This document shows, piece by piece, positions 3,225 through 12,769 of a DNA stretch of 32,686 bases. Source of the DNA: Myxococcales bacterium (lineage in GTDB: Bacteria; Myxococcota_A; Polyangia; Haliangiales; Haliangiaceae); contig SXJR01000544.1 of assembly GCA_005779305.1 (NCBI GenBank), positions 1 to 32,686 of the forward strand, written 5' to 3'. Position 1 is the stretch's first letter; each line of letters starts with the position of its first letter. Made by a program: the position numbers and the translations under genes. Below the pieces are notes generated by a model. The model was not told where the DNA came from. It made no database searches and saw only the letters and a list, made by a program, of their open reading frames with translations.

Positions 3225-5039
<1,815 letters not shown>

Positions 5040-5048
5040 CCTCTCGCC

Positions 5049-6194
5049 ATGGCAGCGCGGCCTCGGGTCGGGTTCGTGGTCGGCGTCATCGTGGCGGGGC
5101 TGGTGCTGTTCCTCGTGCCCAGCGCGTGGTTGCACGCCCGCGGCATGCCGTACGCGGTGTGCCTCGTCGCTGGTCTCCTGGCGTTCCCGCTCCTGCCGGT
5201 CGGCTGGCACGTCTGGGCCGAGCGCAAGCGCGGCGTCGCCGCCGCCAGCGCCAAGCCCGCCGCCAAGGTCGCGAGCAAGAGCGCGACTAGCTCGCTCAGC
5301 GGCGGGGATCGCTTCACGATGCGCTTCGCCGCGGTCGCGCTGCTCGCGCTGGGCCCGCTCCTGTTCTTCCGCCCCGGCCAGACCTGGCGGGCGGTGCGCC
5401 ACGACGCCACCTGGTTCATCCCGACCTCGCCGCCCGGGCCGCGTTCGCTCGCCGGCGATCCTCGCCTCCTGGCCCAGGTGCCCGGCGACGCCGAGGTGGT
5501 GGTGTGGATGCGTGCGCTCGACGCGCTTCAGGCCGGCGCCGGCGGCGACGCCAGGCGCGACGCCGATCAGCCCGACGAGGCGCTCATCGCCTTCCGCGAC
5601 GGCGAGCTCATCATGGTGGTGCGCGGGCCCGACAAGGCGTTGTCGGGCGTCGACCTCGACGACGTCAACCGCCAGCTCGACAAGGTGCCGGCGTGGATGC
5701 CGATCAAGGGCAAGTTCGTGGCCCGCCGCCGCGGCAAGGACCTGCTGGTCATCGTCACCGAGGGCTGGGCCGCGTCGGCCGACGATCGCGACGCCGGCAA
5801 GAGCACCGGCCCGACGACGCTCACCGAGCGCCTGAACGGCGCGCCTCGCGACGCTGTCATCATCGCCGCCGCCGCGCCGTCGCGGCCCATCTCCGGGATC
5901 ACCGTCAATGGCGCCCAGTCGTGGCTGCGGGTGTCCAAGAACGACATCCGCCTCGACGGCGAGATGTTCGTCTCCGACAAGACCGCCGCCCTCGCCATCG
6001 TGGCCACGCTGCGCGCGTCGCAGAAGGACCTCGAGGGCAAGGTGCCGAGCGAGTGCAAGCAGCCCATGTCGCGCCTCCTGTCCCGCATCGTGATCGACAG
6101 TGGCGAGACCTCGGTGCGGCTCAGCGCCCGCTGGGATCCCAAGGAGATCGGCGAGGCGATGATGTGCGGGCTGGCGGCGGCGATGAAGGAATAG
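5049..6194 (+). CDS. membrane-anchored protein of unknown function
   Basis: This 381-residue protein has two N-terminal membrane segments (VGFVVGVIVAGLVLFLVPSA and AVCLVAGLLAFPLLPVGWHVW) and an Ala/Lys-rich loop. A third hydrophobic segment follows near residue 95 (RFAAVALLALGPLLFF). Then comes a soluble domain of about 270 residues, probably periplasmic. That domain contains DAEVVVWMRALDAL, a pattern resembling myxobacterial proteins that compute over repeated beta units, but I do not recognise a family. The gene follows the acyl-CoA dehydrogenase by 9 bases. Its TAG stop lies in one arm of a hairpin shared with the stop of tyrS. Confidence 0.75.
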   Translation: MAARPRVGFVVGVIVAGLVLFLVPSAWLHARGMPYAVCLVAGLLAFPLLPVGWHVWAERKRGVAAASAKPAAKVASKSATSSLSGGDRFTMRFAAVALLALGPLLFFRPGQTWRAVRHDATWFIPTSPPGPRSLAGDPRLLAQVPGDAEVVVWMRALDALQAGAGGDARRDADQPDEALIAFRDGELIMVVRGPDKALSGVDLDDVNRQLDKVPAWMPIKGKFVARRRGKDLLVIVTEGWAASADDRDAGKSTGPTTLTERLNGAPRDAVIIAAAAPSRPISGITVNGAQSWLRVSKNDIRLDGEMFVSDKTAALAIVATLRASQKDLEGKVPSECKQPMSRLLSRIVIDSGETSVRLSARWDPKEIGEAMMCGLAAAMKE

Positions 6195-6201
6195 CCCGCG
6201 G

Positions 6202-6205
<4 letters not shown>
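6191..6205. terminator. short symmetric hairpin containing both convergent stop codons
   Basis: ATAGCC (6191-6196), CGC, GGCTAT (6200-6205) is a perfect 6-bp dyad. The TAG stop of the plus-strand gene (6192-6194) is in one arm and the TAG stop of tyrS (6204-6202 on minus) in the other. There is no U-tract, so bidirectional termination is only a possibility. Confidence 0.3.
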
Positions 6206-7497
<1,292 letters not shown>

Positions 7498-9050: not shown

Positions 9051-10043
9051 CTAGATCATGCCGCGGCGGCGAAACCAGTCGAGCGCGTCACGGATGGCGC
9101 CGTCGATCGGGCTCTTGCGGTAGCCGAGCTCGGCCTCGGCGCGCGCGCTCGAGAACTGGAACCGATCGGTGTACGCGTAGCGGGCCTCGACCGAGCCGAA
9201 GACCGGCTCTTTGCCGGTGAGGCGCTGGTAGAGGTCGCCGGCTAGCCCGGCGGCGATGGCGGCGGCGCGCGGCGCCGGCAAGCGTGGCGGCTTCACGCCG
9301 GCGGCGCGGGCGATGCGCTCGAACAGATCGCGGTAGGCGAGGTTGTCACCGCCGAGGATGTAGCGCCGGCCGCGCTGGCCGCGCTCCCAGGCTGCGATCG
9401 CGCCGCGGGCGACATCGCGCACGTCGACGAAGCAGTTCTTGCCGCCGGGGTAGATCGGGATCCTGCCCTTCACCAGATCGACGATCACGCGCCCCGACGA
9501 CGGCCGCGCGTCGCGCGGGCCGATCAGGAAGCCGGGGTTGACGATCACCGCGTCGATGCCGCCGCGCACCGCCGCATCGACGAGCTGCTCGGCCTGGTGC
9601 TTGGTGGTGCAGTAGCCGTCGTCGAGCTTGTAGTCGCCGAAGTTCCACGGCGCGCGCTCGTCGACCGGCTGGCCGTCGGTGGACAGACCGACGGCGACCA
9701 CGCTCGACACATGGACCAGCCGCCGGGCGCCGGTCTTCTCGAAGGCGCGCAGCACCGCCGCCGTGCCATCGACGTTGGCCTTGCGCAACGCCGACGTCAC
9801 CGTCGGCGAGACGCCGACGGCCGCGGCAGTGTGGAAGACGACGTCGGCGCCCTTGAAGGCGTGCTCGAGCGACGGCGGATCGTCGAGGTCGCCGAACACC
9901 CACTCGATGTCCAGGTCAGCGAGGTGATCGACCTTGCTGGTGCGGCGGCGGATGGCGCGGACCTGGACGCGGCGCGCGCGTAGCTCGGCGGCCAGGTTTC
10001 CCCCGAGCAGACCCGAGGCGCCGGTGATGACCGCGATCGGCAA
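9051..10043 (-). CDS. NAD(P)-dependent epimerase/dehydratase, extended SDR (dihydroflavonol reductase-like)
   Basis: This 330-residue extended short-chain dehydrogenase/reductase has the Rossmann motif TGASGLLG (7-14) at the very N-terminus. Asp at GDLDDPPSLEHAFKGADVVFH follows, then HTAAAVG, the active-site Ser region HVSSVVAVG (113-114), and the catalytic YxxxK pair Y144/K148 (YCTTK). NPGFLIGPRD is the usual post-catalytic strand. The family acts on nucleotide sugars, sterols or flavonoid-like ketones, and the substrate here is not evident. The start codon lies only 26 bases from the divergent repeat-protein gene, so the two genes' promoters must overlap coding DNA. Confidence 0.9.
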   Translation of the reverse strand: MPIAVITGASGLLGGNLAAELRARRVQVRAIRRRTSKVDHLADLDIEWVFGDLDDPPSLEHAFKGADVVFHTAAAVGVSPTVTSALRKANVDGTAAVLRAFEKTGARRLVHVSSVVAVGLSTDGQPVDERAPWNFGDYKLDDGYCTTKHQAEQLVDAAVRGGIDAVIVNPGFLIGPRDARPSSGRVIVDLVKGRIPIYPGGKNCFVDVRDVARGAIAAWERGQRGRRYILGGDNLAYRDLFERIARAAGVKPPRLPAPRAAAIAAGLAGDLYQRLTGKEPVFGSVEARYAYTDRFQFSSARAEAELGYRKSPIDGAIRDALDWFRRRGMI

Positions 10044-10069
10044 CGCCGGTTGATGCTACCTTTGCCGGC

Positions 10070-10408
10070 ATGACGCGGACAATGTTCGCCGCCGTGCTCC
10101 TGGCCGGAACCTACGCGCTCGCCGCGGCCGGCCCGGGCGCGGCGCCCTACGCCAAGGTCGGCAGCGACTGCTCGCTCGGCGGCAAGAAGCTCCACGGCAA
10201 GGTGAAGGTGGTCGAACACTTCCCTGACTTCAAGGTGAAGGTCGTGGAGCACTTCCCCGATCTCAAGGTGAAGTTCGTCGAGCACTTCCCCGACTCGTGC
10301 GGCGAGTGGCAGCTCGTCGAGCACTTCCCTGACTTCACGATCCAGTACGTCTCGCACTTCCCCGACTTCGAGATCCAGAAGGTCTCGCACTTCCCCGGCG
10401 TCCCCTGA
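10070..10408 (+). CDS. small secreted protein of six HFPDF tandem repeats
   Basis: This 112-residue protein has a signal peptide (MTRTMFAAVLLAGTYALAAA), then about 20 residues with C34, then six tandem units of about 11 residues. The units are KVKVVEHFPDF, KVKVVEHFPDL, KVKFVEHFPDS, CGEWQLVEHFPDF, TIQYVSHFPDF and EIQKVSHFPG. Each pairs an alternating hydrophobic/charged beta-like strand with an invariant HFP turn. C34 and C77 could form a disulfide. Units 1 and 2 differ at six codons, five of them silent, which shows selection on this reading frame. The mature protein would be about 90 residues, periplasmic or secreted. I do not recognise a characterised family. A short beta-solenoid or repeat-array binding protein is possible, but function is unknown. 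Confidence 0.85.
   Translation: MTRTMFAAVLLAGTYALAAAGPGAAPYAKVGSDCSLGGKKLHGKVKVVEHFPDFKVKVVEHFPDLKVKFVEHFPDSCGEWQLVEHFPDFTIQYVSHFPDFEIQKVSHFPGVP
10199..10399 (+). repeat. in-gene tandem repeat region (six 33-39 bp units)
   Basis: The six HFPDF-coding units occupy this span. They share the core CAC TTC CCC/CCT GAC/GAT and vary mainly at third positions. The unit carrying C77 is two residues longer than the others (CGE before W). Confidence 0.85.
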
Positions 10409-10424
10409 GCTCGGGGCGTCGTCG

Positions 10425-12317
10425 CTAGGAGACGTTCCACCGCCGGGCCAGCACCGGCGCCTTGAGCCCCTTCACCGGCACGCTCACCTCCTCGAGCTCG
10501 GCGCCGCGCTCGGTCAGGTGCGCGGCCACGCCCGGCGCGGCGTAGGTGCTCGCCGACACCACGACCTGGCCGGCCTCGACGACGTTCTGGAGCTTGGCGG
10601 CCAGGTTCACGGCGTGGCCGAAGTAGTCGAGGTTGGCGTTGAGCTTGACCGCGATGCAGTTGCCGGTGTTGAGCGACACCCGCAGCCGCAGCCCGCTCGG
10701 GTCGGCGAAGTACGTCTGGATGGCGACGGCGGCTCGGACGGCGTCGACCGGATCCATGAACGCGCCCATGGCGGCGTCGCCGATGGTCTTCACCACCGCG
10801 CCCCGGTGCCGGGCGATGGTGCCGAAGACCTCGGTGAAGTGGTGACGGACCGCCACGAAGGCGTCGGGGTCGCCCTTCTCGGCGTACATCGCGGTCGAGC
10901 CGACGATGTCGGTGAACAGGATGGTCTGCTCGCCGACCGCGAGCCGTACGTCGGCACCGAGGAACTCCTCGCTGAACAGGTCGCGGAACTCCTGGTGGCT
11001 GAGCAGGCGGCCGGGGCGCAGCGCCAGGTCCGACGGGGTGGCCTGCTCGAGGATGAAGGTCCGGGGTTCGGACGAATCGTTGACCAGCGACAGCGCCGCG
11101 TGCGGCGGCGCCGCCTGCTCACCCGGCGGCGCGCTGGCCCGCCACGACACCGGCTCGCCGCCCTCGCCGGGCGCGCCGGGCTCGCCGCGACCGCTGCGTT
11201 CCATCACGTCGAGGAAGCCGGCCGGCGCTTCCTGACCACGGTTGCGCAGGCGGTAGCGGCCGGGTGCGAGGTCGACCTCGATCGCCGTGCCGCCGCCGGG
11301 CTGGAGCGCGCGCTGGACCCGGATGTGGGTCTTGGTCGACGGCTCGGCGCTGCAGTACAGGCGCTGCTCGACCTGTCGGATCGACGGGTGCACGCGGAAG
11401 CTGACCTCGACGGCGTCGGCGGTACCGAACTGGATCGCGCACACCTCGCACTCGCTCTGGGCCGACACGTCGCCGAGCCGGGTCTCGGTGTCGCGCACGC
11501 CGCGGCAGTGCGGGCACACCACGTCCCACGCCAGCTCGAGCAGGCCGGCGCGGGTCGCATGCAGGAACACGCGCAGGAGCGCGTCCTCATCGATGCTCCA
11601 CGCCCGCGCTCGCTCGCGCACCTGGATCCGGCACACGTCGAGCTCGTCGCCGGTCTTGACCAGCTCGACCACCTTGTCGACGCTGGCCGCATCGAGCCCC
11701 TTCTCGCGCAGCTGCTCGCCGATCGTGCGCAGCCGCTCCTCGGCCTGGGGCCCGAGCGCCGGCGGCGGCACCGACAGCGCCGCCGCCTTGGCCGCGCGGG
11801 CGGCCGCCGCCAGCTCGGGCAACACCTTCCGGTAGCCGCGCCCGATCGCCGCAAAGTTGATGCGCATGATCGGCGCCAGGAGCGGCCAGCGCGGCACCGC
11901 CCCGAAGTAGAGGTAGAAGCGCGAGCCGCCGGCGCCGTCCGGTTCGATGCGGTTGATCGTCCATAGCGCCTTCATCGCGCCCTTGCTGAAGACGCGCAGG
12001 AACGAGAACCAGCGCCCGGCCACCCAGTCCCACGGCACTTCGTGCCAGGCGTGGAACACGCCGCCGTAACGGGCGCTGCCGTAGCGCAGGCCGTCCTTCT
12101 CGCTGAACTTCATCTCGGGGTTGCCCACGGCGCGATTCATCCGCGACATGTCCGAGATCAGCGGCCACAGGTCCTCGGGCGGCAGCGCCACGTCGATGAC
12201 CCACAGGAAGTCCAGGTGTCGATCGCGTGCGTGCGGGTTTGGCCACGGGTGCTCGCGCAGCAGGTCCTGGACGCTCAGGCGTCCAGGCGCGGGGAGGCGC
12301 GCGGAGTCAGCAGACAC
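10425..12317 (-). CDS. multidomain class III adenylate cyclase (START-like + DUF5939 + cyclase)
   Basis: This 630-residue protein is predicted to make cAMP in the cytoplasm. Residues 35-175 resemble a START/SRPBCC ligand-binding fold (DVALPPEDLWPLISDMSRMN, WFSFLRVFSKGAMKALWTI). Residues 200-440 match the DUF5939-type region, including a zinc-ribbon-like CPHC and CEVC. Residues 465-630 are the class III cyclase. Metal-binding D470 (FTDIVGST) and D514 (KTIGDAAMGAF) are present, as are adenine-selecting K510 and D564 and transition-state N571. The usual Arg four residues after the Asn is Lys (K575, VNLAAKLQ). The GTG at 12317 is chosen because the alternative ATG at 12389 lies inside the divergent lipoprotein gene. 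A lipid or hydrophobic ligand may control activity through the START-like domain; this is inference. Confidence 0.88.
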   Translation of the reverse strand: MSADSARLPAPGRLSVQDLLREHPWPNPHARDRHLDFLWVIDVALPPEDLWPLISDMSRMNRAVGNPEMKFSEKDGLRYGSARYGGVFHAWHEVPWDWVAGRWFSFLRVFSKGAMKALWTINRIEPDGAGGSRFYLYFGAVPRWPLLAPIMRINFAAIGRGYRKVLPELAAAARAAKAAALSVPPPALGPQAEERLRTIGEQLREKGLDAASVDKVVELVKTGDELDVCRIQVRERARAWSIDEDALLRVFLHATRAGLLELAWDVVCPHCRGVRDTETRLGDVSAQSECEVCAIQFGTADAVEVSFRVHPSIRQVEQRLYCSAEPSTKTHIRVQRALQPGGGTAIEVDLAPGRYRLRNRGQEAPAGFLDVMERSGRGEPGAPGEGGEPVSWRASAPPGEQAAPPHAALSLVNDSSEPRTFILEQATPSDLALRPGRLLSHQEFRDLFSEEFLGADVRLAVGEQTILFTDIVGSTAMYAEKGDPDAFVAVRHHFTEVFGTIARHRGAVVKTIGDAAMGAFMDPVDAVRAAVAIQTYFADPSGLRLRVSLNTGNCIAVKLNANLDYFGHAVNLAAKLQNVVEAGQVVVSASTYAAPGVAAHLTERGAELEEVSVPVKGLKAPVLARRWNVS

Positions 12318-12364
12318 GTGCCCTCGAGTATATCGGGCAACCGTGCCCGCCGCGCGCTGCTCCA

Positions 12365-12769
12365 ATGGCTGTGATAGCGCTCCGCTCATCCGTCGTAGTC
12401 GTGCTCGCGGTCGCCGTGACGGCCTGCGCCCACGACCTCCATGCCCGCTTCCCCGCTCCCCCCGACGCCCCCACCGGCACCGTCGAGCTGGTCTTCACCG
12501 CCCCCGCCTCCGATGTCTCCGTGGCCGTCAACGGCAAACTCGTGGTCCACGACGAGCGCACCGAGAGGATCCGCATCGACGACGTCCCCACCGGCTACGC
12601 CGACCTCGCCATCGCCGCAGGCTCCGGCGAGAAACAGATCCGGGTCTGGGTCGAGTCCGACCACATGACCACGATCCCGCTCGGTGCACCCGGCGAGGCG
12701 CCGATGTCGGCCATCCGCGCCCTGGCCACGTCGCTGGCGTCGATCGCGCTCTACGCGCTCCTGAACTGA
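12365..12769 (+). CDS. small lipoprotein, unknown function
   Basis: This 134-residue protein begins MAVIALRSSVVVVLAVAVTAC, a lipoprotein signal with lipobox VTAC. The mature part contains one beta-sandwich-like domain (PTGTVELVFTAPASDVSVAV, then NGKLVVHDE and IDDVPTGYADLAIAAG, a PEGA-like pattern of short strands). It ends with a hydrophobic stretch, AIRALATSLASIALYALL, that may be a C-terminal membrane or packing helix. It is divergent from the cyclase and convergent with the P450. A carbohydrate- or peptidoglycan-contacting role is possible from the PEGA-like look, but unproven. Confidence 0.7.
   Translation: MAVIALRSSVVVVLAVAVTACAHDLHARFPAPPDAPTGTVELVFTAPASDVSVAVNGKLVVHDERTERIRIDDVPTGYADLAIAAGSGEKQIRVWVESDHMTTIPLGAPGEAPMSAIRALATSLASIALYALLN

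Follow-up and report, generated by a model that had tools for sequence, protein, structure and literature searches.

A small gene in a Myxococcales genome encodes a protein in which the same short turn recurs six times, and the question it raises is what kind of protein this is and what it might do. The gene lies in a 32,686-nucleotide stretch of contig SXJR01000544.1 (assembly GCA_005779305.1), which is hereafter called the window. An earlier note, made from the sequence alone, had taken the product for a secreted protein of a possibly new repeat family and had named a small beta-solenoid, a metal-binding array and a surface adhesin as candidates. Our analysis leads to a more specific answer: in identity and fold, the window gene is almost certainly a member of the family of Q9PR55, a Ureaplasma protein described as a torus knot. 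The kind of protein is already known (the Q9PR55 knot family) and its fold is largely explained. New here are the rigid layout of six units, the variation in cysteines, an apparent export signal and, for some relatives, a setting among phage baseplate genes.

The gene and its six units

In a program-made list of open reading frames (ORFs), the gene is a plus-strand frame that begins with ATG and encodes 112 residues, exactly the frame claimed in the earlier note (Table 1). HFP occurs six times in the protein, with His at residues 50, 61, 72, 85, 96 and 107, i.e., at spacings of 11, 11, 13, 11 and 11. The protein had been described as six near-identical HFPDF units. The six HFP turns are indeed there, but near-identity is confined to units 1-3: compared with unit 1, units 4, 5 and 6 differ at 4, 5 and 7 of 11 residues, keeping the turn and strand pattern of the first three. 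HFPDF is also a loose description, as the unit ends read, in order, HFPDF, HFPDL, HFPDS, HFPDF, HFPDF and HFPGV. Two further details were reproduced as given, namely the six codon differences between units 1 and 2, five of them silent, and the cysteines at residues 34 and 77.

The repeat stands out clearly from chance. Self-identity of residues 26-112 peaks at a shift of 11 residues with a value of 34 (best over shifts 5-24), versus a mean of 10.1 and a maximum of 18 in 10,000 shuffled controls (best of 20 shifts), and the HFP array has the top tandem-repeat score in the window (150). Two antisense frames stay open through the whole repeat (window 10147-10440, minus strand, 97 aa, and 9797-10390, minus strand, 197 aa), which we take as mechanical, arising from high-GC repeat DNA.

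Table 1. Features of the gene and its two neighbors, in window coordinates
Feature	Position	Strand	Basis
Divergent neighbor, NAD-dependent epimerase family	9051..10043	-	PF01370, E 2.5e-32
Whole gene, 112 aa, relative of the Q9PR55 torus-knot protein and of phrog_6462	10070..10408	+	sequence and profile matches
Signal-peptide-like N-terminus, residues about 1-22 (end approximate)	10070..10135	+	hydropathy; cleavage site by eye
Cys34, putative disulfide partner	10169..10171	+	co-occurrence with Cys77 in 61 sequences
Unit 1: strand 43-47, turn EHFPDF, His50	10196..10231	+	sequence and model
Unit 2: strand 54-58, turn EHFPDL, His61	10229..10264	+	sequence and model
Unit 3: strand 65-69, turn EHFPDS, His72	10262..10297	+	sequence and model
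Cys77, putative disulfide partner	10298..10300	+	co-occurrence with Cys34 in 61 sequences
Unit 4: Gly78, strand 79-82 with Trp80, turn EHFPDF, His85; preceded by a junction longer by two residues	10301..10336	+	sequence and model
Unit 5: strand 89-93, turn SHFPDF, His96	10334..10369	+	sequence and model
Unit 6: strand 100-104, terminal turn SHFPGVP, His107	10367..10405	+	sequence and model
Convergent neighbor, guanylate/adenylate cyclase catalytic domain and DUF5939	10425..12389	-	PF00211, E 1.5e-15

Relatives and their distribution

Only one solved relative was found, PDB entry 8iwa of Ureaplasma UU089.1 (Q9PR55), at E 1.1e-8 in a phmmer search with the single window sequence and at E 1.2e-15 with a profile of 24 family sequences. 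The window protein also matches phrog_6462, a PHROGs family of unknown function, at E 2.8e-32, and so do all 61 non-redundant family sequences, the window's included (E<=0.001). Homology to Q9PR55, which has solved structures, refutes the idea of a new repeat family, since the repeat had already been characterized in structure, though not in function. Our literature search, covering the family, the knot and the phage link, found no functional study.

The domain libraries were of little help. Pfam gave no match to the window protein at E<=1, and no Pfam family was matched by more than two of the 24 family sequences (best E 0.0013); NCBIfam gave two weak matches to the window protein, far below the cut-offs, and none to the 61 family sequences at E<=0.001. 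One candidate, PF19647, considered as a family named for the 7_1 knot, was dropped: the entry bears the name DUF6150 and gave no match to the window protein at E<=1, nor is it among the Pfam families matched by the 24 family sequences (E<=0.1). It was likewise absent from the window's own genome and from 10 genomes holding relatives, a scan in which no positive control matched.

A pattern scan of genome contigs returned 24 loci from Myxococcales, Kofleriaceae, Nannocystaceae, Myxococcota, Spirulina, cyanobacteria, several families that we take to be Negativicutes, Bacteroidetes, Lysobacterales, Rhodospirillales and Desulfovibrio. Among genomes near the window's own, 12 of 56 have a match (own genome included), as do 5 of the 6 other genomes of the same genus. 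The distribution is patchy in a phylum-wide sample, with matches in 19 of 282 genomes (own included). Viral contigs yielded 24 loci, and three further viral-contig scans gave no new contig; two queries of INPHARED phage records found no match, and plasmid records gave three (two from Leptospira weilii and one from Burkholderia stagnalis). From 84 matches we removed 4 short ones (<70 residues; L024, L025, and one each in L078 and L079) and 19 near-duplicates, which left 61 sequences including the window's. Of these, 59 keep the spacing 11, 11, 13, 11, 11, whereas L043 and the first of the two L020 domains are incomplete; selection of the set by profile may favor the six-unit layout. Judged by these sequences, the family proves to be widespread but patchy across phyla, with six units at a rigid spacing where ordinary tandem repeats would drift.

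Some loci hold unusual copies. In a Bacteroidales MAG, L020, two family domains stand in tandem within one open frame (3698-3940 and 3977-4240), with a signal-peptide-like stretch upstream in another frame, and in a Desulfovibrio MAG, L014, paralogues lie side by side (220-573 and 601-921). One copy is collapsed, with unit 1 running straight into the last unit (L025, around 4001-4147), and another leaves the frame after unit 3 (L024, around 4001-4302); either may reflect assembly error or decay.

Genomic context

Between the listed start of the epimerase ORF and the ATG of the window gene there are 26 bases (10044-10069). Promoter and terminator scans returned nothing, including no sigma-70-like promoter in this gap. 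Both neighbors are kept in three same-genus relatives, each present twice (L002/L028, L003/L027 and L004/L026). In L029 and L034, the remaining same-genus relatives that carry the gene, it stands at a different place, with neighbors common to the two, so the position of the gene varies even within the genus. The turns of L029 and L034 read DAFPD rather than HFPD, as might be seen in a paralogue or after relocation or transfer. Clustering of neighbors found none common to the window's lineage and other lineages, and this confinement of the window gene's recurring neighbors to its own genus counts against the reading preferred below. Elsewhere, a CoA transferase gene (PF01144) adjoins the family member in L005 (Nannocystaceae), L064 and L071. 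By eye, a macrodomain-like gene lies near L008, L022 and L037, and there are neighbor pairs within lineages, e.g., L010/L062.

The viral loci suggest a different account of the family, in which it is phage-borne cargo (a moron) that acts at the cell envelope when phages enter or are released, e.g., to stop a second injection; the window gene would then be a chromosomal copy retained to that end. In three viral loci (L043 3938-4228, L044 4001-4351 and L060 4004-4366), the gene sits on the opposite strand with a baseplate-hub gene on either side, one of phrog_4930 and the other of phrog_5233. In L048, which represents the near-identical L046-L054, it belongs to the tail module and directly precedes a baseplate-wedge gene, an order repeated in a Leptospira weilii plasmid record whose next gene is annotated baseplate J/gp47. 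By eye, the copies in L043, L044, L060 and L048 have a hydrophobic N-terminus. A phrog_4930-like hub gene was found in 12 of the 24 viral loci (four lineages) and a phrog_5233-like one in 11 of 24, with L080 (family copy at 5956-6270) in addition; however, nine of the 12 hub-positive loci are one lineage, and the hub models were built from L043, L044, L048 and L060, which therefore match by construction. Neither model matched at any of 55 loci from cellular genomes, but this control is weak, as several of the 55 are duplicates and in 31 the flanks extend no further than about 1.5 kb. In the remaining 12 viral loci, flanks of up to 4 kb contain no hub gene. Nor does the window copy adjoin baseplate genes, as judged by the hub models and a scan of its two neighbors, both of which look chromosomal. 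On balance, we consider the cargo account quite improbable.

Two by-eye observations on the viral loci may be recorded here. Some of those free of hub genes have lysis-type genes (L041, L055 and L059), and the copies in L040, L041 and L045 may start just before the domain, with no obvious signal peptide.

Structure model and probable knot

A first structure model, built from 24 sequences, had a mean pLDDT of 85.2, with a wide spread over the five models (85 to 43). Where it matched the PDB significantly, the target was Q9PR55 and the superposition poor, with TM-scores of 0.28/0.38-0.39 and an rmsd of 10.2 for three crystal chains and 0.43/0.53 for the NMR model. The second model, of the mature protein and built from 61 sequences, reached a mean pLDDT of 91.3 (87.6-91.3 over the five models) and has six strands. 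Foldseek returned four PDB matches for it at E<=0.001, all of them Q9PR55, with TM-scores (query/target) of 0.56/0.62 for 8iwa_A, 0.56/0.63 for 8iwb_F, 0.53/0.53 for 8jrm and 0.31/0.35 for 8iwa_D. The rmsd was 3.3 at a TM-score of up to 0.63, and 8iwa_D still superposes badly. A viral structure library gave no match at E<=0.001, and the 3_1 Knotted Solenoids are absent among the five matches listed for the second model. As the second model matches the Q9PR55 structures, the fold is common to the two proteins. The database search and the structure prediction proposed in the earlier note yielded relatives in many genomes and an ordered, confident beta model.

We regard a torus knot in the window protein as quite likely, with the caution, raised in PMC10672856, that AlphaFold can mis-assign topology. 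Three alignment columns are invariant (V25, V60 and D76 in mature numbering), and the near-invariant ones are G, F, D, V, W and P. The conserved residues look structural rather than catalytic, which makes an enzyme unlikely.

The beta-solenoid of the earlier note came close, in that the protein is made of strand repeats, but published accounts of the solved relative speak of a torus knot. Could the window protein still be unknotted, a small beta-solenoid or adhesin of the ordinary kind whose resemblance to the Q9PR55 family is only local? The repeat-strand architecture would suit such a protein, as would the poor superposition of the first model and, with the second, of one crystal chain. It is hard to reconcile with homology to Q9PR55 over residues 43-102 and with a TM-score and rmsd as good as those of the second model, which has no other PDB match at E<=0.001. 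An unknotted solenoid would also tolerate a varying number of repeats, whereas the 59 complete sequences all keep six, albeit in a profile-chosen set that may favor this layout. We therefore judge it very unlikely.

Turn residues and possible homogenization between units

At the position of the window's His, unit pairs within a protein carry the same residue at a rate of 0.64, versus 0.27 for the same unit between proteins; in 1,000 linkage-breaking shuffles, the value never exceeded 0.31. The residue before the His behaves similarly (0.43 within and 0.24 between proteins; shuffle maximum 0.28), and strand positions -6 and -4 from the His are also above the shuffles (0.45 and 0.51; maxima 0.39 and 0.41). 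Positions -7, +1, +2 and +4 are slightly above the shuffles, and -5, -3, -2 and +3 are not. Within-protein uniformity is thus strongest at the His position, yet not confined to the turns.

This pattern speaks for like-on-like stacking of turn residues, partial homogenization of the units, or both. Between units, the same-codon rate is 0.594, whereas local codon use, crudely estimated, would give 0.474 (55 of 61 genes), a modest excess that makes some homogenization at the DNA level possible. Gene conversion as the sole cause of the uniform turns was rejected because the codon excess is modest; it may have contributed in part.

The turn residues also bear on the metal-binding array proposed in the earlier note, in which the repeated His and Asp would serve as ligands. 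In the window protein, six His and five Asp do stand in register, but a conserved ligand His was not found among the relatives: all six units have Ala at this position in L031 and L034, Thr in L067, Ser in L030 and Asn in L077. A turn residue that is uniform within but variable between proteins argues against a conserved metal site, and we consider the array a very distant prospect.

Selection, probable export and cysteines

Over residues 40-112, dN/dS (NG86) against three relatives is 0.46, 0.18 and 0.20, lower than over residues 1-39 against the same three (0.80, 0.93 and 0.43), which independently supports the selection on protein sequence argued in the earlier note. A low-complexity or mechanical ORF with no protein product would fit the high GC content and the long frames that are open on either strand, but it deserves practically no weight given the match rate within the genus, the lower dN/dS over the repeats and, already sufficient to refute it, the homology to the solved protein Q9PR55.

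A strongly hydrophobic N-terminus, defined as a 10-residue stretch with mean hydropathy of at least 1.8 within the first 37 residues, is found in 22 of the 24 members of set A1, the window's included, with start codons picked by a simple rule; the two members without it by this measure are L030 and L036. The signal peptide of the earlier note stands as a signal-peptide-like start that makes export probable, on the basis of hydropathy and a cleavage site placed by eye.

Cys34 and Cys77 come as a pair. Among the 61 sequences, the window's included, 34 have both, 26 have neither and one (L011) has Cys34 only (Fisher p 2e-16, uncorrected for shared ancestry). This co-occurrence implies a disulfide, and we infer one between Cys34 and Cys77. 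Six of the 26 sequences without the pair (L035, L036, L073, L074, L075 and L077) instead carry a pair of Cys in the N-terminal segment and a third in a terminal FPGC, so placed that a covalent closure of the chain is conceivable in these relatives.

Proposed role

The reading that we prefer, and consider likely, is that the window gene encodes an exported member of the Q9PR55 (7_1-knot) family, a disulfide-stapled torus-knot beta protein acting as a binding or scaffold module. For the role itself, non-enzymatic binding or scaffolding, we see about an even chance, by inference. The signal peptide would send the protein to the periplasm or outside, where winding of the strand-turn units would give a knotted beta fold of torus type, held by the conserved V, F, D, G, P and W columns. 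The turn residues would stack like on like, which would account for their uniformity within proteins and change between them, and the Cys34-Cys77 disulfide would staple the N-terminal segment to the junction of units 3 and 4. We would expect a small, highly stable protein that shows no sign of an active site and would most likely serve in binding or as a scaffold in the cell envelope or secretome.

A bolder version, which strikes us as rather unlikely, extends this to an exported torus-knot family across phyla with covalent stapling (Cys34-Cys77 in 34 of 61 sequences, end Cys in 6 of 61), the knot of the phage copies, kept beside baseplate-hub genes, serving as armor at the envelope during injection. 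If this is true, the end Cys, once bonded, would give a natural protein whose torus knot is genuinely and permanently closed. The sixth unit, one more than in Q9PR55, might even permit a knot other than its 7_1.

In the literature covered, the 7_1 protein knot had been described from one Ureaplasma protein and a homologue. The family offers natural members that are stapled, unstapled and equipped with Cys near both ends, and so provides material on why proteins keep costly knots. The phage baseplate modules, in turn, suggest where function may be sought.

Comparison with known systems

The closest known system is Q9PR55 (PDB 8iwa, 8iwb, 8iwc, 8jrm and 8w68), which is homologous over window residues 43-102 and has the same strand-and-FPD-turn units. 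As read from the alignments, Q9PR55 has five F turns spaced 11, 13, 13, 11, whereas the window protein has six spaced 11, 11, 13, 11, 11, i.e., one extra unit and a shorter junction ahead of unit 3. Since the six-turn spacing is kept in 59 of the 61 sequences that match phrog_6462, we take this departure as variation within the family rather than as grounds for exclusion. The signal-peptide-like start and the co-varying Cys pair are features of the window protein, set against a Q9PR55 whose first residues lie outside the comparison.

Q9PR55 was identified as a 7_1 knot in AlphaFold models (PMC9278004), its structure is described as the most complex protein knot, and X-ray confirmation is stated in citing papers (PMC13352647, PMC11223836, PMC11184937). 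Its homologue P73136, 48% identical to it, was predicted from an AlphaFold model as 5_1 instead of 7_1 (PMC9278004); by its description, P73136 has 112 residues, the same length as the window protein. We count this 5_1 prediction and the difference in unit number from Q9PR55 as points against the preferred reading. phrog_6462 differs in setting, being a family of virus proteins by design of its library, whereas the window copy sits among chromosomal-looking genes. The 3_1 Knotted Solenoids (PMC13123833) are likewise repeat-built knotted beta proteins of bacteria; compared by description, they are triangular coils nearest to pentapeptide repeats, with a skip-and-backtrack shift.
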